DNA of 53,797 nt from Candidatus Rokuibacteriota bacterium (GTDB lineage Bacteria; Methylomirabilota; Methylomirabilia; Rokubacteriales; CSP1-6): contig QHSZ01000086.1 in NCBI GenBank assembly GCA_003220595.1, positions 1-53,797 of the forward strand, written 5' to 3'. Shown here one piece after another: positions 12,634 through 22,622 of the stretch (the first letter of the stretch is position 1; each line of letters starts with the position of its first letter). The position numbers were made by a program, and so were the translations under genes. The notes beneath the pieces were generated by a model that was not told the origin of the DNA, made no database searches, and saw only the letters and a list, made by a program, of their open reading frames with translations.

Positions 12634-12665
12634 GGCACAATCGGGGCCAATGGCCTCGAGCCACG

Positions 12666-14216
12666 ATGAAACGGCACATCTTTCGCAGGGCTCTGAGCGC
12701 AACACTAATCATGTCCCTGCTGGCGCCCGTCCCAGGGTTCGCGCAGCAAGGGGCGACGGGTCCGCCGGCCGCGCCTCCGGCCGTTCCCGCGCGACCGGTG
12801 CTGCCGGCCGCGGCGCCTCCGCCCCCGAGCCGCATCATTCCGGGCCCTGAGTACCGGGTGGGTCCCGGCGACATCCTCGACGTACAGATCGCCGGCCGCC
12901 TCGAAGTGATCCGCTCCCAGGTCGCCGTCGACCTGGAAGGCGCCGTCAACATGCCGCCCCTCGGCTCGATCCCGCTCTCGGGTCTCACGTTGCTCGAGGC
13001 CCACCGGCGCATCGCCGCACGCGCGCACGCGATCTACAAGTTCGTGGACGTGACGGTCGCCGTCGTCGCGCCCCGCACCTTCGAGATCACCGTCTCGGGC
13101 GAGGTCGAGCGGCCAGGGACGATGACGGTGAGCGCCACGCGGCGGCTCCACGAGGTCACCCTCGAGGCGGGCGGCGTCACGCCGCGCGGCAGCCTGCGGC
13201 GCGTCCTCGTGGCCAGGAAAAGCGGTCAGGCCGAGATGGACCTGCTGCGCTTCGAGCTCAGGGGCGATCTCTCCCAGAACCCGTTCGTCGAGGAGGGTAT
13301 GAGGATCCTCGTGCCCCCGAAGGGCCCCTCGGTCATGCTGGCGGGCGCCGTCCGCCGGCCCGGGGAGTATGAGATCGGTCCCGACGGCTCGCTCGCGGCG
13401 CTCCTCGACCTCGTCGGGGGCCTGAGCCAGGCCGCGGCGGGGGCCGAGGCGCGGCTCACGCGCGTCGGCGCCGATGGCCGCAAGGAAACGCTCACGCTCG
13501 ACCTCCACACCGCGCTCCGGGCGCCGGCCGACGTGCCGCTCCAGCCCGGCGACGCGCTGTTCGTGCCGCCGCTTTCCGTGCTCCAGGACGTCGTCGAGGT
13601 GCGCGGCGCCTTCACCGGCACGCCCGAGTCCAGCAAGACGAGCGTGGCCGGCAAGGCGACGATCGTGCAGCGCTTCGAGCTGGCGCAGGGCGACCGCGTC
13701 CGCGACGTCGTCGTCCGCGCCGGCGGCGCGGCGGCGTACGCCGACCTGCGGCTCACGGTGATCGAGCGCAGCGGCCAGACCGGGCCGCGGCAGCGGATCC
13801 CCGTCGACCTCCACCGGTTGCTCGTCGAGAAGGACGAGACGCAGAACGTCCTGCTCCAGAACGGCGACGTCGTCCTCCTGCCCATCGTCGAGGACAAGGT
13901 CTACGTCGTCGGCGAGGTCAGGACGCCCGGCGGTCTGGACTTCCGGCCCGACCTCACGCCGCGGGAGTACGTCACGCTCGCGGGCGGGCCGACCAACCGC
14001 GCCAAGCTCCCCGGGACGGCCGTGACCTTCCGCAACGGCAGGACCTACGCGATGGCCGATGCGCCGCCGCTCGAGCCGGGCGCGGTCGTCACGGTGCCCG
14101 AGGTCGCGGTGAAGTGGTGGCAGGACTACCTGCAGATCGCGTCGGTCCTCGCCGGGCTCGTCACCGCGTACACCGGCGTCTACATCCTCTTCAACGGCCC
14201 GTTGTCGAGGCCCTGA
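12666..14216 (+). CDS. Wza-like polysaccharide export protein with SLBB domains
   Basis: 516 residues. A signal peptide ends near AFAQ-type residues 22-26 and has no lipobox Cys, unlike E. coli Wza. A Pro/Ala-rich linker follows, then the polysaccharide-export domain (YRVGPGDILDVQIAGR, from about 60). Next come several SLBB ligand-binding repeats: ITVSGEVERPGTM near 140, VMLAGAVRRPGEYEI near 222, VEVRGAF near 312, VYVVGEVRTPGGL near 414. A C-terminal hydrophobic helix (IASVLAGLVTAYTGVYILF) would span the outer membrane. It should form the outer-membrane exit for the glycan. First gene of the long EPS operon. Confidence 0.92.
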   Translation: MKRHIFRRALSATLIMSLLAPVPGFAQQGATGPPAAPPAVPARPVLPAAAPPPPSRIIPGPEYRVGPGDILDVQIAGRLEVIRSQVAVDLEGAVNMPPLGSIPLSGLTLLEAHRRIAARAHAIYKFVDVTVAVVAPRTFEITVSGEVERPGTMTVSATRRLHEVTLEAGGVTPRGSLRRVLVARKSGQAEMDLLRFELRGDLSQNPFVEEGMRILVPPKGPSVMLAGAVRRPGEYEIGPDGSLAALLDLVGGLSQAAAGAEARLTRVGADGRKETLTLDLHTALRAPADVPLQPGDALFVPPLSVLQDVVEVRGAFTGTPESSKTSVAGKATIVQRFELAQGDRVRDVVVRAGGAAAYADLRLTVIERSGQTGPRQRIPVDLHRLLVEKDETQNVLLQNGDVVLLPIVEDKVYVVGEVRTPGGLDFRPDLTPREYVTLAGGPTNRAKLPGTAVTFRNGRTYAMADAPPLEPGAVVTVPEVAVKWWQDYLQIASVLAGLVTAYTGVYILFNGPLSRP

Positions 14217-14220
14217 ACTA

Positions 14221-15027
14221 ATGTACGAAGCGTACTGGGAGCTCGCCGAATCACCATTCGACAACTCGCCGAACCCGAAATTCTTTTACCTCTCGCCGGA
14301 CCACGAGGAAGCCCTGGTGCGGCTCGTGTACACGGTCCGCCACCGCAAGGGCTGCGGGATGCTCACGGGCGAGTACGGGTGCGGCAAGACCACGCTGTCG
14401 CGCGCCCTCATCCAGCGGCTCGAGGCCGACCGCTACGAGATCGGCCTCCTGACCAACCCGAGCTGGACCCCGGTCGAGTTCCTCCGCGAGGTGCTCTACC
14501 AGCTCGGTGTCGAGACGGACGAGAAGAACAAGCCCGAGCTTCTCCATTTGCTGAACGACGCCTTCTACCGGAACTTCCAGGCCGGACGCGACAGCGTCGT
14601 CATCGTGGACGAGGCGCAGCTGATCGACGACGACGCCGTCTTCGAGGAGCTCCGGTTGCTCCTGAACTTCCAGACCGACGAACGCTTCCTCGTGACGCTC
14701 CTCCTCATCGGCTCGCCCGAGCTCGCCGTCAAGGTGCGGCGGATGAAGCACCTCGACCAGCGGATCACGCTCCGCTACCACCTGAACACGCTCGACTACA
14801 CGCACACGGCGAACTACATCGCGCACCGCCTGACGATGGCGGGCCAGACGAGGCAGCTCTTCACCGAGGGGGCGATCAAGCTCATCTTCGACTTCACGCG
14901 CGGGACGCCGCGCGAGATCAACAACCTCTGCGACGTCGCCCTGCTCGTCGGCTTCTCGAAGCGCGCCACGGAGATCGGGGACAAGATCATCGCCGAGGTC
15001 ATCAAGGACATGGTGGGCGTGTCCTGA
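14221..15027 (+). CDS. ExeA-like AAA ATPase of polysaccharide locus
   Basis: 268 residues. MYEAYWELAESPFDNSPNPKFFYLSPDHEEAL is typical of GspA/ExeA-like ATPases found in exosortase-type polysaccharide loci. Walker A is GEYGCGKTT (about 51-59), Walker B VVIVDEAQ (about 124-131), with a sensor-like TLLLIGSPEL and an arginine region RRMKHLDQRI. There is no C-terminal membrane helix or peptidoglycan-binding domain, unlike ExeA, so it is cytosolic. It presumably powers or regulates assembly of the export machine. It lies 4 nt after the Wza-like gene, and its stop shares one base with the next ATG (TGATG). Confidence 0.9.
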   Translation: MYEAYWELAESPFDNSPNPKFFYLSPDHEEALVRLVYTVRHRKGCGMLTGEYGCGKTTLSRALIQRLEADRYEIGLLTNPSWTPVEFLREVLYQLGVETDEKNKPELLHLLNDAFYRNFQAGRDSVVIVDEAQLIDDDAVFEELRLLLNFQTDERFLVTLLLIGSPELAVKVRRMKHLDQRITLRYHLNTLDYTHTANYIAHRLTMAGQTRQLFTEGAIKLIFDFTRGTPREINNLCDVALLVGFSKRATEIGDKIIAEVIKDMVGVS

Positions 15028-16142
15028 TGGTACGGATGAGCGACCTCGTGCGTGGCACCGTCGTCGCCCCGAAGCCCGCGGCGGAGACGGACAAGGACAC
15101 GGCCGCCAAGCGGCCGGCCGCGGGAGCCGGCGTGCCGCCGGCGCTCCCCCGCACGCGCCTCGCCGATCTGACGCCGCCGCCACCCGCGCCGCCGAAGCAG
15201 GCCGAGCCCGCGCGGCCTGCGCCGGAGACGCGCGCGCGAGCCGAGGCGCCGGGCGAGAGCGCCGAGCCGCTGCTGGGTGAGCTGCAGGTGTGCATCGCGC
15301 GGGTGCGCGAGGTCGCACGCGCTGGCGGGCAGTTCCCGTGGGGCGATCTCGAGCGCCTGATCGTGCGCGTCGTCGGCTCGCTCGAGCGCGCCGGCGACCT
15401 GTTCTGGGCGGCCAACAACCCCGCGGCGCCGCCCGGCATCGATTACCTCGCGTTCCACCAAGCGCGCGTCGCGGTGCTCGCGATCCGCATCGGCATCGAC
15501 CTCGGTTACGAGCGCCGGCGCCTCATCCCGCTTGGCATCGCGGGGGCCCTCATCGACGTCGGGCTCTGGCAACTGCCCGAAGGCGTGCTGCGGCGGCTCG
15601 ACGCGCTCTCGCCCGAGGAGCAGACGCAGTATCACTCGCACCCGCGGCTCGGCGCCGACCTGCTTCGGCGCTTCACGCCGCCCCACGAGGGCATCGTCGA
15701 GGCGGTGTTGCAGCACCACGAGCGCGAGCAAGGGCAGGGCTTCCCCCAGGGGCTCGCCGCCGTGGCGATCCACCCCGACGCCAAGATCCTGGGCCTCGTC
15801 GACACGTATGCGGGGCTCACCGTCCCGCCGACCTCGCGGCCGCGCGTCCGCCCGCACGAGGCGATCCGCGACATCGTGCGGGGGAAGCACGAGTCCTTCC
15901 CGTCCGCGCTCGTCAAGGCGCTGCTCTCCGAGGTCTCGGTCTTTCCGCCGGGCACGCTCGTGCGCCTCAACACGGGCGAGATGGGGCGCGTCATCGCCGT
16001 GAACCGCAGCCATCCGCTCCGGCCCCGCGTCGAGATCATCGCCGACGGCAAGGGCCAGCGTCTCCCCGCGCCGAAGACGACCGACCTCGCCGAGGCGCCC
16101 TTCCTCTACATCACCGGTGCGGTCGCGGAGGGCGGGCACTAG
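15027..16142 (+). CDS. degenerate HD-GYP domain protein
   Basis: 371 residues. The first 80 are Pro/Ala/Lys-rich and probably disordered. From about residue 130 an HD-GYP-like fold is seen: YLAFHQARVAVLAIRIGIDLGYERRRLIPLGIAGALIDVGLWQLPEGVL, HPRLGADLLRRF, VLQHHEREQGQGFPQGL, AKILGLVDTYAGLT. The metal-binding HD pair is altered to Ile176-Asp177, the usual following GK is GL, and GYP reads GFP. Phosphodiesterase activity on cyclic-di-GMP is therefore doubtful; it may sense the nucleotide or act structurally. A beta-rich tail follows (VFPPGTLVRLNTGEMGRVIAVN). Its position inside the EPS operon suggests control of export. Confidence 0.82.
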   Translation: MVRMSDLVRGTVVAPKPAAETDKDTAAKRPAAGAGVPPALPRTRLADLTPPPPAPPKQAEPARPAPETRARAEAPGESAEPLLGELQVCIARVREVARAGGQFPWGDLERLIVRVVGSLERAGDLFWAANNPAAPPGIDYLAFHQARVAVLAIRIGIDLGYERRRLIPLGIAGALIDVGLWQLPEGVLRRLDALSPEEQTQYHSHPRLGADLLRRFTPPHEGIVEAVLQHHEREQGQGFPQGLAAVAIHPDAKILGLVDTYAGLTVPPTSRPRVRPHEAIRDIVRGKHESFPSALVKALLSEVSVFPPGTLVRLNTGEMGRVIAVNRSHPLRPRVEIIADGKGQRLPAPKTTDLAEAPFLYITGAVAEGGH

Positions 16143-19100
16143 TGGCACAGTACGAGATGAACCTCCGCGACTACTGGATGATCATCCACCGCCGGCGGGT
16201 GATCATCATCACCGCGACGGTGCTCGTCGCGGGGCTCAGCTTTTGGATCGCCAAGCAAAAGGTCCCGAACTACCAGGCGACGGCCGCGGTGAAGTTCGAG
16301 CAGTCCACTCAGCTCTCGGGCCTGCTCGTCGAGGTGCTCTCGTACTCCAGCGCGGACAACATCGAGACCCAGGTGACGCTCATCAAGAGCTACCCGATCC
16401 TCGAGGAAGCCGCGAAGCGGCTCGGCCGGCTACCGGAGACCGCCTCCGGCGAGGCGCTCCGCGAGGCGAAGAGCTACTGGGCCGCGCTCGACGCGATCGG
16501 CTCGAAGGTCAAGATCGCCCGGGTCCCGACCACGAGCATCCTCGAGATCACGGTGACCTCGACCAACCAGCGCGAGGCCCGGGACATCGCCAACACGGTC
16601 GCCGAGGTCTACCGCGACTACAACAAGGCCCAGCGCAACGTCCGGGTCACCGAGGCGCGCAAGTTCATCGAGAGCCAGCTGAAGGAGGTCGAGGGGCGCG
16701 TGAAGCGGGCCGAGTCCGAGGTGTGGGCGTTCCGCGAGGCCAACCGGATCATCTCGCCCGGCGCCGAGTCGTCGGTGCTGCTCTCGCTCTTCACGCAGGT
16801 GCGGGGCGACATCGAGAAGGCCCGCCAGCAGCGGACCGAGCTCGAGCTGGTGCAGCAGCGGCTCGTCCGGACCGACGCGGCCAACACGGGCGAGCGCGTC
16901 TTCGTCGACACGACGAACCCGGCCGTACAGCGGCTCCAGAGCATGTATTCGGAGCTCCTCCTCGAGCGCAACAACCTCGCGCTCGAGGTGACCGACAAGC
17001 ACCCGCGGCTCCAGGCGCTCGACGACCGTATGCGCGAGGTCCGCATGGAGATGCGGCGCGAGGTCGGGGCCCAGATCGCCGCCCTCCGCAGCCGCGAGGA
17101 GATCCTCAACCGGCAGATGGGCGAGCTCCTCCAGAAGAACCGCGAGATCCCCGAGGTCGAGCTGACGATGCAGCGACTCCAGCGGGAGGCGAAGAACAAC
17201 GACGACCTCCTCACGCTCCTGAAGACGAAGCACCAGGAGGCGCTCATCAAGGAGTCGGAGAAGATCGAGGAGGTGACGATCGTCCGGCCGGCCATCGAGT
17301 CCGACACGCCCATCGGCGCGGAGATGCTGAACACCGTCCTCGTGGGCGCGATCCTCGGCCTGTCGCTCGGGCTGGTCCTCGCCTTCGTGCAGGAGACGCT
17401 CGACACCTCGATCGGCACGATCGAGGACATCGAGGCGTACCTCGAGGTCCCGGTCCTCGGCGTGGTGCCGCACATCGACGCGCGGGCGACGGTCCAGAGC
17501 ATCCTCGCGCGACGGCCCGCGCTGGCGCAGATGGAGCCGGACGCGCTCCTGAGCCACTCGCTGCTCATCACCCACTTCGACCCGAAGTCGCCGGTTGCCG
17601 AGGCGTTCCGCACGCTCCGGACGAACATCCAGTTCGCGCGCCTGGAGCGGGCGGGAAAGCTCCTCGTCGTGACCAGCGCGACCCTGCAGGAAGGCAAGAC
17701 GACGACGATCGTCAACCTGGCGATCACGATGGCGCAGAGCGGGCAGCGCACGCTCCTCGTCGGCTCCAACATGCGCCGCCCGAGCATCCATCGCTTCTTC
17801 GGCATCGAGCGCGAGCCCGGGCTCTCCGACATCCTGGTCGGCAGCGTCCAGTGGCGCGACTGCATTCGCACCGTCGCGGACATCCTCATGGGCCGCTTCG
17901 AGATGGAAGACATCATGTCCGCGCCGGGCCTCGACAACCTGCACATCATCGAGGCCGGGCCGATCCCGGCGAACCCCTCCGAGCTCCTCTCGACGCCGGC
18001 GATGACCGCGTTCCTCCAAGCCGTGCGCGAGGAGTACGACATCGTCCTGATCGACACGCCGCCGGTCCTGCCGGTCACCGACTCGGCGATCGTGGCGTCG
18101 CAGACGGACGGCGTGATCCTCGTCTACCAGGCGGGCAAGGTGGGGCGCCTCGTCCTGAAGCGCGCCAAGGTCCATATCGAGAACGTCGGCGGCAAGGTCT
18201 GGGGCGTCGTCCTCAACGACGTCAAGAGCGAGATCGCCGGCTACGCGTACACGCACTACTACACGCACTACTACGGCGAGGAGACGGTCGTCGACGCCCG
18301 CAAGGAGCAGCTCCAGCGGGTCGGCGGCTTCTTCCGTAAGCTCTTCCGGCGCGGTGGCGGCAAGGAGACGACGATCGCCGAGCGCCCGGCCGAGGTGGCG
18401 GGCGCGTACGCGCCGGCCGCCGACGAGCCCGCGAGGGCGCGCCGCGGACCCCGCCGCGGCCTCCTGCTCGCGCTGCTCGTGGTCCTCGCGGGGGCCGCGG
18501 TCGCCGGGCTCTTCGCATGGCGTGCGGGGTGGCTGACGAGCGACCTCGGACCGCGGCAGCTCCTGCGCCAGAGGCTCGCGGCACCCCGGCCGGCGGCTCC
18601 GGCGCCGGCCAGCGCCGCGCCGCCCCCTCTCGTGGCGCCGGCGCCGCCTCCGGTCGCGCCCGAGTCGGTCGCGGCGGCCCCCGCGCCCGTTGCCCCGGCC
18701 CCCGCGCCGGTCGCCCCGGCCCCTGCGCCCGAGAGCGTGGCTCCCGCTGCGGCGGCTCAGGCGCCGGGCCCCCCGCCCGCGCCCGAGGTGCAGGCACCCG
18801 CGCCGCCGCCGCCGGCGGCGGCGGCCGCCGCGCGCTTCGCGCTGGAGCTCGGGCCGTTCACGAAGCGGGAGGACGTGGAGCGCGTCGAGCTCCAGCTGAG
18901 CCGGGCCGGCTACGCGACCGTCCGCTTGCGCCAGCGCGACACGGGCGCGGCCGTGTACGCCGTGCTCATCGAGCAGGTCCCGAGCGCCCGTGAGGCGCAG
19001 GCGGTCGTCGCCACTCTCCGTGAGCAGGGCTTCGGCGACGCGATGGCGCTGGGCGACGGTGAGCCGCGTGGCGTGCGCGTCGGCGCGCCGCTGCCGCTGC

Positions 19101-19288
19101 GCGGCGCGGTGCAGCTGGCCGAGCGGGTCCGCGCGGCCGGCTACCGCGTGCGCGTGGCCCTACAGCCGGGGGAGGCTCTCACGTTCACGCTGCGGCTCGG
19201 CAGCTTCGCGACGTCCGAGGAAGGCCAGGTGACGAGCCAGGAGCTGACGCGCGCCGGCCTCGCGAACCGGGTCGTCCGGGTGAAGTAG
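16142..19288 (+). CDS. Wzc-like chain-length determinant/BY-kinase with C-terminal SPOR repeats
   Basis: 1048 residues. N-terminal Wzz domain with TM1 near 20-38 (IIIITATVLVAGLSFWIAK), a long periplasmic coiled coil, and TM2 near 395-417. Cytoplasmic P-loop domain: Walker A SATLQEGKTTT near 510; the Walker A' region reads LLVGSNMRRP where families have LLIDxDxRRP; Walker B is VLIDTPP. The tyrosine cluster YAYTHYYTHYY (near 700) marks a bacterial tyrosine kinase tail. Unusually the protein continues: a third TM (LLLALLVVLAGAAVAGLFAW, about 775-795), a Pro/Ala linker, and two SPOR-type repeats (about 898-1048). Start GTG at 16142 overlaps the previous stop by one base; ATG 16157 is an alternative. 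Controls polymer length and export by phosphorylation cycles. Confidence 0.9.
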   Translation: MAQYEMNLRDYWMIIHRRRVIIITATVLVAGLSFWIAKQKVPNYQATAAVKFEQSTQLSGLLVEVLSYSSADNIETQVTLIKSYPILEEAAKRLGRLPETASGEALREAKSYWAALDAIGSKVKIARVPTTSILEITVTSTNQREARDIANTVAEVYRDYNKAQRNVRVTEARKFIESQLKEVEGRVKRAESEVWAFREANRIISPGAESSVLLSLFTQVRGDIEKARQQRTELELVQQRLVRTDAANTGERVFVDTTNPAVQRLQSMYSELLLERNNLALEVTDKHPRLQALDDRMREVRMEMRREVGAQIAALRSREEILNRQMGELLQKNREIPEVELTMQRLQREAKNNDDLLTLLKTKHQEALIKESEKIEEVTIVRPAIESDTPIGAEMLNTVLVGAILGLSLGLVLAFVQETLDTSIGTIEDIEAYLEVPVLGVVPHIDARATVQSILARRPALAQMEPDALLSHSLLITHFDPKSPVAEAFRTLRTNIQFARLERAGKLLVVTSATLQEGKTTTIVNLAITMAQSGQRTLLVGSNMRRPSIHRFFGIEREPGLSDILVGSVQWRDCIRTVADILMGRFEMEDIMSAPGLDNLHIIEAGPIPANPSELLSTPAMTAFLQAVREEYDIVLIDTPPVLPVTDSAIVASQTDGVILVYQAGKVGRLVLKRAKVHIENVGGKVWGVVLNDVKSEIAGYAYTHYYTHYYGEETVVDARKEQLQRVGGFFRKLFRRGGGKETTIAERPAEVAGAYAPAADEPARARRGPRRGLLLALLVVLAGAAVAGLFAWRAGWLTSDLGPRQLLRQRLAAPRPAAPAPASAAPPPLVAPAPPPVAPESVAAAPAPVAPAPAPVAPAPAPESVAPAAAAQAPGPPPAPEVQAPAPPPPAAAAAARFALELGPFTKREDVERVELQLSRAGYATVRLRQRDTGAAVYAVLIEQVPSAREAQAVVATLREQGFGDAMALGDGEPRGVRVGAPLPLRGAVQLAERVRAAGYRVRVALQPGEALTFTLRLGSFATSEEGQVTSQELTRAGLANRVVRVK

Positions 19289-19309: not shown

Positions 19310-20629
19310 ATGGATTCCGCGTTCGTCCTGGCGATCGCCCTCGCCGTCTTCCTCGTCGTCTTCATCAAGACGGAGATCGGCCTCTACCTCGTCGTCTTCT
19401 CCATGCTGCTCTCGCCCCAGTTCGGCGCGGGCGGCGCGCTCGCCGAGGGCCGGCGGTTCGTCATCCGGAGCGAGGACATCCTGTTGCTCGTGGTCGCGCT
19501 GAGCTGGCTCGCGAAGACTGCGGTCAACAAGGAGCTCGGCCTCACGCTCAAGACGCCGCTCAATCGGCCGATCCTCGCCTACCTCGCGACGACCGCGCTC
19601 GCGACGCTCGTCGGCTACGCGACGGGCACGGTCCAGGGCCTCGGCGGCTTCTTCTACGTCTTGAAGTACGTCGAGTACTTCATCGTCTACTTCATGGTCG
19701 TGAACAACCTGGGGGACCGGCCGCAGGTGTGGCGCCTCGTCACCGCGGCGTTCCTCACGGCGGTCATCGTCAGCCTGATCGGCGCCTCGCAGATCCCGTC
19801 GGGAGAGCGCGTGTCGGCGCCGTTCGAGGGCAAGGAGGGCGAGCCGAACACCCTGGGCGGCTATCTGCTCCTGATGATGGCGATCGCCGGCGGCATCGCG
19901 CTCGAGACCACGCGCATCCGCGTGCGCGCGGTGTGCCTCGGCCTGGTCGCGCTGATGGGGCTGCCCTTCGCCTATACGCTCTCGCGCGCCTCGTTCCTCG
20001 GCGTGCCGTTCGTGCTCGGGACGCTGGCCGCGTTCTCCACGCGCCGGAAGGTCGTCACCCTCGCGCTGCTGCTCGCGGTCGTCGCCTCGCCCCTGACGCT
20101 CACGCTCCTGCCCACGCCGGTCGTGAACCGGCTCCTCTACACGTTCCAGCCGGAGACGGGCCAGGCGACGGTGAAGCTGGGGCGCGTCGCCTTCGACCCG
20201 TCGACGTCCGCGCGGCTGATCAGCTTCCAGTCGGCGCTCGCGGGCTGGGCCAAGCACCCGTTCCTCGGCTACGGCGTGACGGGGTTCGCCTTCATGGACG
20301 CCCAGTACGCGCGGACCCTCGTCGAGACGGGGATCATCGGCCTCGGCGCGTTCCTCTGGCTCGCCTGGTCCGTGTTCCGGGGCGGCGTCGGCTCGATCCG
20401 CTCGCTCGCGGACGGCGACGAGCGGGGCCTGGCGCTCGGCTTCGTCGCGGGCCTCGTCGGGCTCCTCGTGCACGCGATCGGCGCGAACACCTTCATCATC
20501 GTGCGCATCATGGAGCCTTTCTGGTTCTTCGCCGCCGTGGTCATCGCGCTCCCGGTCCTCGCGGCGCAGGAGACGGCGGCGCCGGCGCGTCCGCTGCGTC
20601 CGGTGCGTCCCGCCCGGCGCGTCGCGTGA
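19310..20629 (+). CDS. O-antigen polymerase/ligase family protein (Wzy-like)
   Basis: 439 residues with about ten to twelve membrane helices. A long periplasmic loop includes the conserved region RVAFDPSTSARLISFQSALAGWAKHPFLGYGVTGF, the R...A...HP..G.G signature of the Wzy_C/O-antigen ligase family. It should link undecaprenyl-carried repeat units, or transfer polymer to an acceptor; polymerase and ligase cannot be told apart by sequence. It starts 21 nt after the Wzc-like gene and its TGA overlaps the GTG of the KdsC-like gene. Confidence 0.88.
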   Translation: MDSAFVLAIALAVFLVVFIKTEIGLYLVVFSMLLSPQFGAGGALAEGRRFVIRSEDILLLVVALSWLAKTAVNKELGLTLKTPLNRPILAYLATTALATLVGYATGTVQGLGGFFYVLKYVEYFIVYFMVVNNLGDRPQVWRLVTAAFLTAVIVSLIGASQIPSGERVSAPFEGKEGEPNTLGGYLLLMMAIAGGIALETTRIRVRAVCLGLVALMGLPFAYTLSRASFLGVPFVLGTLAAFSTRRKVVTLALLLAVVASPLTLTLLPTPVVNRLLYTFQPETGQATVKLGRVAFDPSTSARLISFQSALAGWAKHPFLGYGVTGFAFMDAQYARTLVETGIIGLGAFLWLAWSVFRGGVGSIRSLADGDERGLALGFVAGLVGLLVHAIGANTFIIVRIMEPFWFFAAVVIALPVLAAQETAAPARPLRPVRPARRVA

Positions 20630-21174
20630 GGCTCGCCCGTCGCGTGCTGGCGCGGGCCCGCCGGGTCCGGCTTCTCGTGATGGACGTGGACGGGGTGCTG
20701 ACGGACGGCCGCATGATCCTCTCGGAGCGCGGTGACGAGCTGAAGGCCTTCCACACCCGCGACGGAGTCGCGGTGGCGCTCGCCAAGCGCGCGGGCCTGC
20801 GCACGGCGATCGTGACGGGCGAGTCGAGCCCGATCGCCAAGGCGCGCGGGGCGAAGCTCGGCGTGGACTCGGTCGTCCTGGGTGCCCGCCGGAAGGGCGA
20901 GACCGTGGAGGCGCTCATGACCGAGTTCGGCCTGGCCGCCGACGCGGTCGCGTACCTCGGCGACGACCTCCTCGACATCCCGGCGATGCAGCGCGTGGGC
21001 CTCGCCCTCGCCGTCAGAGACGCGGCGGCGGCGGTCGTGGCGGTTGCCCACGCCGTCACGCGCGCCGCGGGCGGGCAGGGGGCGGTCCGTGAGTGCGTGG
21101 AGCTGATTCTGAAGGCCCAGGGGTCCTGGCAGCGGACCCTTCGCGGTTACGTGAGCGAACACGGAGGTCGATGA
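20626..21174 (+). CDS. kdsC: KdsC-like HAD phosphatase (Kdo-8-phosphate phosphatase)
   Basis: 182 residues, a cap-less HAD of the KdsC type. Motif I is LLVMDVDGVLTDGRM (DxDGxLTDG), motif II IVTGESSP, the motif III lysine lies in GARRKGETVEAL, and motif IV is YLGDDLLDIPAMQRVGLALAV. KdsC removes phosphate from Kdo-8-P in the pathway to CMP-Kdo for lipopolysaccharide. Its place inside an EPS locus leaves open a related sugar phosphate. GTG start in a GTGA overlap with the Wzy-like gene; the stop overlaps the flippase ATG. Confidence 0.87.
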   Translation: MRLARRVLARARRVRLLVMDVDGVLTDGRMILSERGDELKAFHTRDGVAVALAKRAGLRTAIVTGESSPIAKARGAKLGVDSVVLGARRKGETVEALMTEFGLAADAVAYLGDDLLDIPAMQRVGLALAVRDAAAAVVAVAHAVTRAAGGQGAVRECVELILKAQGSWQRTLRGYVSEHGGR

Positions 21175-22622
21175 CGCCGGCCGACGCACTCGGGCTCCGC
21201 GGCCGCACCCTTCGCAGCTTCATCGTCCTCGCGGCGCAGCGGGTCGCGAGCCTCCTCGTGATCGCCGCGGGCGGCATCGCCCTGGCCCGGCTCCTCACGC
21301 CCGCGGAGTTCGGGCTCTACGCGATCTTCTCGTTCGTGATCGGCCTCGGCGTCACCCTCTCCGACCTCGGCCTCGGCGCGGCGCTGGTCCAACGGCGCGA
21401 TCTCGACCCCAGCGTGACGCTCGGGACGACGTTCACACTGAACCTCGCCCTCGCGAGCGTGCTGGCCCTCGGCGTCGTGGGGCTCGCGCCCGTGGTGGCG
21501 CGCTGGCTCGACCCCGCCGCCGACGTGGCCGCGCCGCTTCGCTGCCTGGCGCTGCTGATCGTGCTCGCGTCCCTGCGGATGCCGGCGGCGGTTCTCCTCG
21601 AGCGGCGGCTCGCGTATCTGCCGCTCGCCATCGCCGAGACCGTGGACACGGTCGTCTTTTACACGCTCGCCGTCGCCGCCGCCCTAGCGGGCGCCGGGCT
21701 CTGGAGCTTCGTCCTCGGCGCGCTCGTCGCGCGTCTCGCCAACGTCGCGATCGTCTGGAGCGCCGCGCCCGCGCGGCTGCGCCTGGCCTGGAGACCGCGT
21801 GAGCTCGCCCCGGTCCTCCGGTTCGGCCTGCCGTTCCAGGGGAGCGCCCTGATCGGGATCGCCCGCGACGCGAGCATGCCCACCATCGTGACGGCGTGGA
21901 GCGGCGTTGCGGCGGTCGGCTTCCTCAACTGGGCGTCGACGCTCGCCTTCCAGCCGCTCCAGCTCGTGGCGATCGCGGGCAAGGTGCTCTTCCCGGCGCT
22001 CTCACGCGTCCAGGACGATCGCGAGCGGTTCGGCCTGGCCACGGAGCGCGCGCTCAACCGGATCGCCACCGTGCTCTATCCGGCGGCGCTCCTGCTGCTC
22101 GCGGGCGCCGATCCGATCGTGCGGCTCGTGTACGGGGAAGCCTGGGCGCCGGCGATCCCGGCGATGCGGCTCTTCTGCGTCACCACGCTCCTCGGCGGCA
22201 CCTCGACGATCCTGGTCCACGCGCTCTACGGTCTGGGCCGGGCCGACCTCGTCTTCCGCCTGAGCCTCGGGTGGGCGGCGCTCGTCTGGGGCCTCACGCT
22301 GGCGCTGGTCCCCTGGCTCGGCTTCCTCGGCTTCGCCGTCGCGAGCGTCGGCGTGTCGGTCACGAGCGTGGCCCCGCTGCTCGTGCTGCGCCGCTCGGTC
22401 CCGATCCGCTTCCTGCCGGCGGTCCGCGTCCCGCTCGCCGCCGCCCTCGTGAGCGCGCTCGCGCTCGGCGCGCTGTCCGAGGTGTGGATCCACGACCTCC
22501 TCTCACTGCTGATCGGCGGCGGCGTGTCGTTCGCGGCCTACGTCGGTCTCGTCCTGCTCCTGGGCGGTGCGGCGTGGCGCGTCGAGCTCGTCGCCGACTG
22601 GCGCACGGCGCTCCAGGGATGA
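21171..22622 (+). CDS. Wzx-like polysaccharide flippase
   Basis: 483 residues with about twelve to fourteen hydrophobic segments and the MATE/MOP-type start AAQRVASLLVIAAGGIALARLLTPAEFGLYAI. ALVQRRDLDPSVTLGTTFTLNL and ALSRVQDDRERF are features of the Polysacc_synt family. It would flip undecaprenyl-linked repeat units from the cytosolic to the periplasmic face. ATGA overlaps occur at both ends of the gene. Placed next to the Wzy-like and Wzc-like genes, it completes a Wzx/Wzy pathway. Confidence 0.9.
   Translation: MTPADALGLRGRTLRSFIVLAAQRVASLLVIAAGGIALARLLTPAEFGLYAIFSFVIGLGVTLSDLGLGAALVQRRDLDPSVTLGTTFTLNLALASVLALGVVGLAPVVARWLDPAADVAAPLRCLALLIVLASLRMPAAVLLERRLAYLPLAIAETVDTVVFYTLAVAAALAGAGLWSFVLGALVARLANVAIVWSAAPARLRLAWRPRELAPVLRFGLPFQGSALIGIARDASMPTIVTAWSGVAAVGFLNWASTLAFQPLQLVAIAGKVLFPALSRVQDDRERFGLATERALNRIATVLYPAALLLLAGADPIVRLVYGEAWAPAIPAMRLFCVTTLLGGTSTILVHALYGLGRADLVFRLSLGWAALVWGLTLALVPWLGFLGFAVASVGVSVTSVAPLLVLRRSVPIRFLPAVRVPLAAALVSALALGALSEVWIHDLLSLLIGGGVSFAAYVGLVLLLGGAAWRVELVADWRTALQG

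Follow-up and report, generated by a model that had tools for sequence, protein, structure and literature searches.

Genes and features of the locus

The stretch of DNA analysed here (the window) is 53,797 nt long and corresponds to contig C150 of a 4.06 Mb draft genome of a Candidatus Rokuibacteriota bacterium. It carries a Wzx/Wzy-type polysaccharide locus, with glycosyltransferase and methyltransferase genes in addition to those listed in Table 1. The gene studied is an intact ORF which starts with GTG and codes for a 1048 amino acid protein. In nearly all family loci located on a long enough contig, the genes run Wza, AAA ATPase, HD protein, Wzc-SPOR, Wzy. The HD_5 protein itself has xDxG in place of the HDxGK of HD-GYP proteins in 37 of the 37 aligned sequences, while its HHE and GFP/GYP-like motifs are mostly retained; a degenerate HD-GYP-like protein is therefore conserved beside a degenerate kinase.

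Table 1. Features of the polysaccharide locus (window coordinates; residue numbers are those of the Wzc-type protein)
Feature	Position	Strand	Evidence
Wza-type export outer-membrane protein (Poly_export + SLBB), start uncertain	12663..14216	+	Pfam; adjoins kinase locus in most family genomes
AAA ATPase (AAA_22; TIGR03015-like)	14221..15027	+	Pfam, NCBIfam, synteny
HD_5 protein, degenerate HD site, directly upstream of kinase	15027..16142	+	Pfam HD_5, 92 bits; alignment of 37 sequences
Wzc-type co-polymerase, degenerate BY-kinase with C-terminal TM3-linker-SPOR pair	16142..19288	+	ORF, Pfam; orthologues 58–87% identical
Wzz domain with TM1 (residues 5–93; TM about 20–38)	16154..16420	+	Pfam Wzz, 32.7 bits; hydropathy
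GNVR running into TM2 (residues 344–418; TM2 about 396–417)	17171..17395	+	Pfam GNVR, 33.1 bits; hydropathy
BY-kinase-type P-loop domain (residues 470–697)	17549..18232	+	TIGR01007, 180.5 bits, above cut-off; PDB Wzc/CapB
Walker A TSATLQEGKTT (511–521), intact	17672..17704	+	Kept in 36/36 orthologues
Walker A' LLVGSNMRRP (538–547), DxD Asp pair replaced by G541 and N543	17753..17782	+	Asp-free in 36/36 family orthologues
Walker B YDIVLIDTP (632–640), intact	18035..18061	+	Asp kept in 36/36
Tyrosine cluster YAYTHYYTHYY (701–711)	18242..18274	+	Mean pairwise identity 0.83 among orthologues
TM3 (771–794)	18452..18523	+	Hydropathy; AlphaFold2 helix; found in orthologues
Pro/Ala-rich periplasmic linker (795–896), location strongly implied	18524..18829	+	Composition; pLDDT mostly <50
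SPOR module 1 (897–968); Glu902 at Gln position, Phe906, Arg928/Arg930	18830..19045	+	Pfam SPOR above cut-off; AlphaFold2; residue counts
SPOR-fold module 2 (972–1048)	19055..19285	+	Second Pfam stretch; AlphaFold2 fold
Wzy-type polymerase/ligase (Wzy_C)	19310..20629	+	Pfam; synteny
Wzx-type flippase (Polysacc_synt_3)	21171..22622	+	Pfam, 191.6 bits

Wzz and GNVR domains, two membrane helices and a P-loop kinase domain are all present on one chain, as defines a Wzc-type (PCP-2a) protein. The P-loop domain is also recognized as AAA_31 (residues 518–664; like Wzz, GNVR and SPOR, above its curated Pfam cut-off), the NCBIfam model matched (TIGR01007) is that of a polysaccharide biosynthesis tyrosine autokinase, and among solved structures Wzc and CapB come closest (PDB, E about 1e-38). 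Three membrane helices appear in the hydropathy profile (residues 20–38, 398–416 and 774–792). In the full-length AlphaFold2 model, whose domain arrangement is of low confidence (pTM 0.38), TM3 is a helix with disordered stretches on either side. The protein is thus confirmed as a Wzc-type polysaccharide co-polymerase/BY-kinase with a C-terminal extension. A first-pass annotation, made from the sequence without database searches, had described a tyrosine cluster near residue 700 followed by a membrane helix, a Pro/Ala linker and two SPOR repeats; this layout is borne out by Pfam, hydropathy and AlphaFold2, and the tail gives the significant SPOR match that such a description implies (Pfam SPOR (PF05036), residues 897–966, in two stretches, scoring 29.6 bits where the cut-off is 21).

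Fold and topology of the C-terminal extension

The E-value of the SPOR match is 9.2e-7 within the whole protein and 1.5e-9 for the 150 amino acid tail, and SPOR HMM scores range from 29.6 to 38.5 bits against the same curated cut-off. AlphaFold2 folds the C-terminal 156 residues into two beta-alpha-beta-beta-alpha-beta modules (mean pLDDT 88.8). When a profile of the pair was compared with PDB, the only significant relatives were the SPOR domain of E. coli FtsN (1uta, E 2.8e-6) and the SPOR pair of CwlC (1x60, E 1.4e-5). A Foldseek search of the pair against PDB gave no match with E <0.001, the CwlC SPOR ranking second (E 0.04); the assignment therefore rests on sequence profiles and on the order of secondary-structure elements.

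In Wzc proteins TM1 and TM2 leave the kinase in the cytosol. Since a third helix is here added to that topology, the tail is expected in the periplasm, and the charges around TM3 agree: 4.4 Lys or Arg residues flank it on the inner side versus 2.5 on the outer side, the inner count being higher in 25 of 35 orthologues. Helix parity and this charge excess strongly imply a periplasmic location, in keeping with the orientation presupposed at first reading. The linker that follows TM3 is made of Pro and Ala for a fraction of 0.67 in the window protein and 0.40–0.61 in orthologues, where its length varies from 69 to 237 amino acids and its sequence is not conserved.

Conservation and selection

The mean pairwise identity among orthologues is 0.82 for the kinase, 0.62–0.63 for the SPOR modules and 0.25–0.34 for the juxtamembrane, TM3 and linker parts. 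Estimates of pN/pS from ten close pairs follow the same order. The kinase and its tyrosines form the most constrained region of the protein (0.02–0.21), the SPOR pair gives 0.07–0.33 in nine of the ten pairs, and the linker and juxtamembrane parts give 0.41–1.49. These values indicate that purifying selection maintains the SPOR pair, and that the linker is kept mainly in its composition. The window's own SPOR pair (18830–19285) evolves faster, with a pN/pS of 0.63 in the pair that contains it.

Two trivial readings of the gene were considered. A decaying pseudogene is ruled out by the pN/pS of the kinase. An artefact of assembly or gene calling that fused two neighbouring genes, or a chance ORF fusion, would find its one point of support in the standalone genes coding for a membrane helix, a linker and SPOR modules that occur in sister lineages; it is ruled out by conservation and synteny, the frame being uninterrupted and Wzy following immediately in dozens of genomes, each assembled on its own, and we consider it vanishingly improbable.

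The glycan-contact site of the SPOR modules

MurNAc and GlcNAc units are contacted in RlpA by the conserved Q270, with further contributions to the site from Phe and from a patch of Arg residues (PMC6895207). The first SPOR module has Glu at this Gln position (Q251 of FtsN) in 33 of 33 family orthologues, so that binding of denuded glycan by the tail is not assured. At the Phe position (profile position 12) this module has Phe or Tyr in 33/33; Arg930 is present in 34/34 and Arg928 in 32/34, but the position of FtsN R285 is without Arg. Gly of the beta3 motif is replaced by Glu or Asp. The second module has Arg or Gln at the Gln position, and mostly Pro in place of Phe. With Gln changed to Glu in one module and Phe missing from the other, the affinity for glycan may be weak or altered, and we do not file the tail as a proven denuded-glycan binder. 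By sequence, the SPOR tails of BY-kinases from other lineages (L117, L132, L134, L149 and L073) retain Gln; because such tails, like other SPOR proteins encoded in related genomes, often keep Gln, the change to Glu is lineage-specific.

A SPOR module would by default be expected to bind the wall, but in the Rokubacteria clade the classical site for denuded glycan is altered. It may be, then, that the periplasmic pair recognizes something else (modified or N-deacetylated glycan, the polysaccharide being made, or a partner protein, for example Wza) and that the tail is a sensor or assembly module rather than a wall anchor. This would account for a fold and an Arg patch that are conserved in spite of the invariant Glu and the beta3 change, and for the Gln often retained elsewhere; moreover, in simulations of the RlpA SPOR domain an N-deacetylated glycan leaves the site on losing the Gln contact (PMC6895207). 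However, contacts between SPOR and glycan are largely made by the main chain together with a basic patch (PMC6895207), and Phe906 and Arg928/930 are retained. On balance we regard a ligand other than denuded peptidoglycan as unlikely, though it is a serious contender. A septal location of the tail, also put forward at first reading, would be inference only.

The kinase core

BY-kinases carry DxDxR at Walker A', as part of a shared catalytic site (PMC8517177, PMC8394532). All 36 family orthologues have GxN (once NxN) instead of DxD, the following Arg being kept (GxNxR, once NxNxR). The first-pass annotation had pointed out that the motif (GSNMRRP) lacks its usual aspartate; the lesion is real, but both aspartates of DxD are gone and not one. 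The family shows little or no variation in Walker A (GKTT), the Walker B Asp, EX2RX2R and the YTHYYTHYY cluster, although the cluster is internal (701–711 of 1048) instead of terminal. Most outgroups retain the second Asp. In the kinase tree, the sister sequences to the Rokubacteria clade (15 rows, support 98) have NxD (L110, L112 and L120), together with one that has GCN (L133). The loss is old, since it is common to the whole clade and a partial NxD form is present in the sister group.

Without the two Walker A' aspartates, the core has probably lost efficient autophosphorylation; judged from its motifs, catalysis would be lost or weak, and the protein is not claimed here as an active BY-kinase. 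Retention of the Walker A Lys and the Walker B Asp in the family leaves activity possible on sequence. An ordinary, active BY-kinase to which the tail adds only localization would explain why Walker A, Walker B, EX2RX2R and the tyrosine cluster hardly vary, if at all, and why no other part of the protein is as constrained as the kinase and tyrosines. Against it stands the loss of both Asp in 36/36 orthologues from a DxD that lies within the catalytic site common to BY-kinases (PMC8517177), and we hold it to be rather improbable. Tyrosines so conserved would nevertheless be odd if they were never phosphorylated, which we count against the explanation favoured below. Phosphorylation in trans is possible, because the same genome encodes a second BY-kinase domain with a canonical DADLR, behind an ExeA-like AAA domain (L172; G000:C154, 528–2597).

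Distribution and origin of the SPOR tail

We searched 95 genomes of the class with a profile of the SPOR pair, presence being defined as >190 bits. Of the 57 that belong to the window's Rokubacteria family, 38 carry the pair, representing 18 of its 24 genera; a few of these matches lie on short or broken frames, and complete frames generally code for at least 1019 amino acids. A strong match is absent from the other 19/57, so the tail is not universal in the family. In a wider survey of 79 loci, chosen among the best matches in genome contigs, BY-kinases with TM3 and a SPOR tail were also found in Latescibacterota (L111, L129 and L149), Syntrophales (L132 and L134) and another Methylomirabilota genome (L117). 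For Latescibacterota and Syntrophales, SPOR on BY-kinase frames was confirmed by a whole-genome scan, whereas a Desulfobacterales locus (L125) that seemed SPOR-tailed gave no match in that scan and was left out of the final counts. The architecture that the first-pass annotation had proposed to survey is therefore widely conserved, in the family and beyond. TM3 without SPOR is found in Planctomycetota-type sequences (L122, L124, L126 and L130), and in L110 and L112.

SPOR-tailed kinases do not form one clade. A single-clade origin was ruled out on the kinase tree (p-AU 2.8e-93, at least five changes), this being a quick tree with long branches in which gene transfer is possible; the tail appears to have been gained or lost several times. 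Relatives of the window protein were not found in viral contigs; among plasmids, 826 records matched the query and none spanned 80% of it; and in 61 unrelated genomes there was no SPOR match in any frame longer than 318 amino acids.

Comparison with known systems and proposed role

The window protein resembles Wzc/PCP-2a co-polymerases (E. coli Wzc, 9r62, 3la6) in its Wzz and GNVR domains, two membrane helices, P-loop fold and tyrosine cluster, and in having Wza, Wzy and Wzx as partner genes; it differs from them by the addition of TM3, the Pro/Ala linker and the SPOR pair after the tyrosine cluster, and by the absence of DxD at Walker A'. With FtsN, DedD, DamX and RlpA it shares a membrane helix, a low-complexity linker and a periplasmic SPOR module, the FtsN SPOR being its nearest solved sequence relative, but here the SPOR domain is in tandem, is fused to a BY-kinase and has Glu for the contact Gln, and there is no sign of a division role. 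A precedent for export placed by the wall is pneumococcal CpsC/CpsD, a BY-kinase system that places the capsule machine at the septum (PMC4574921) and in this way sites polysaccharide synthesis at the division site; CpsC and CpsD are, however, split Gram-positive proteins, have no SPOR domain and are located by another route. No description of SPOR joined with a BY-kinase, a co-polymerase or Wzc was found in the open literature (subscription papers being outside the scope of the search). SPOR domains and BY-kinases are known kinds of module; what is new is their combination, its spread and the loss of DxD.

The explanation that we favour, with a confidence only a little beyond even because the clade's denuded-glycan site is altered, is that of a Wzc co-polymerase whose periplasmic SPOR domains anchor it to the sacculus and whose kinase core is probably a nucleotide-binding switch. 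The protein is the co-polymerase of a Wzx/Wzy-type export locus, in which TM1 and TM2 flank the usual periplasmic stalk meeting Wza while the ring of kinase folds is cytosolic. The third helix would return the chain outward, the flexible linker would take the two SPOR modules to peptidoglycan, and the Wzc-Wza-Wzy machine would thus be fastened to the sacculus, perhaps at sites of wall remodelling. The core would act as a nucleotide-dependent oligomer switch, or its tyrosines would be phosphorylated in trans; a switch is proposed because, with both aspartates lost, strong constraint is still seen on the residues that bind nucleotide, on the oligomer motif and on the tyrosines. We thus infer that the protein binds the wall, that it has lost kinase activity and that export is coupled with wall remodelling; polymer export may have become physically attached to the cell wall and may have ceased to be controlled by self-phosphorylation. 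A more speculative extension, to which we give little credence, is an export free of phosphorylation, in which the wall-tethered Wzc would be a nucleotide-binding pseudokinase, the degenerate HD neighbour would replace an active phosphodiesterase, the Gln-to-Glu SPOR pair would read modified cell-wall glycan, and wall chemistry would directly gate polysaccharide export.

Little is known about how Gram-negative polysaccharide export machines cross the peptidoglycan layer or are positioned on it. A co-polymerase with SPOR modules of its own, found in several phyla, offers a physical connection between the wall and Wzy-type export that is direct and can be tested. Whether co-polymerase function depends on kinase catalysis, or only on nucleotide binding and oligomer changes, can be put to a natural test in the Rokubacteria clade, which has lost the Walker A' aspartates throughout while under strong purifying selection.

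Additional observations

Standalone proteins made of one membrane helix, a Pro/Ala linker and a SPOR pair, resembling the tail of the window protein, are encoded in sister lineages (L163, L164, L165 and L166); no match to the window's polysaccharide genes was found near them. In Methylomirabilota relatives (L168, L169 and L170), the gene of a different SPOR-pair protein adjoins an apparent MiaB-type methylthiotransferase gene, identified by eye from the translations. A contig titled as Chloroflexi (L088) carries a Rokubacteria-type SPOR kinase with GxN and 62% identity, and is likely a binning error. Finally, the BY-kinases of Nitrospinota (L114, L115 and L116) have two extra membrane helices and an acidic tail of 480–680 amino acids after the tyrosine cluster.
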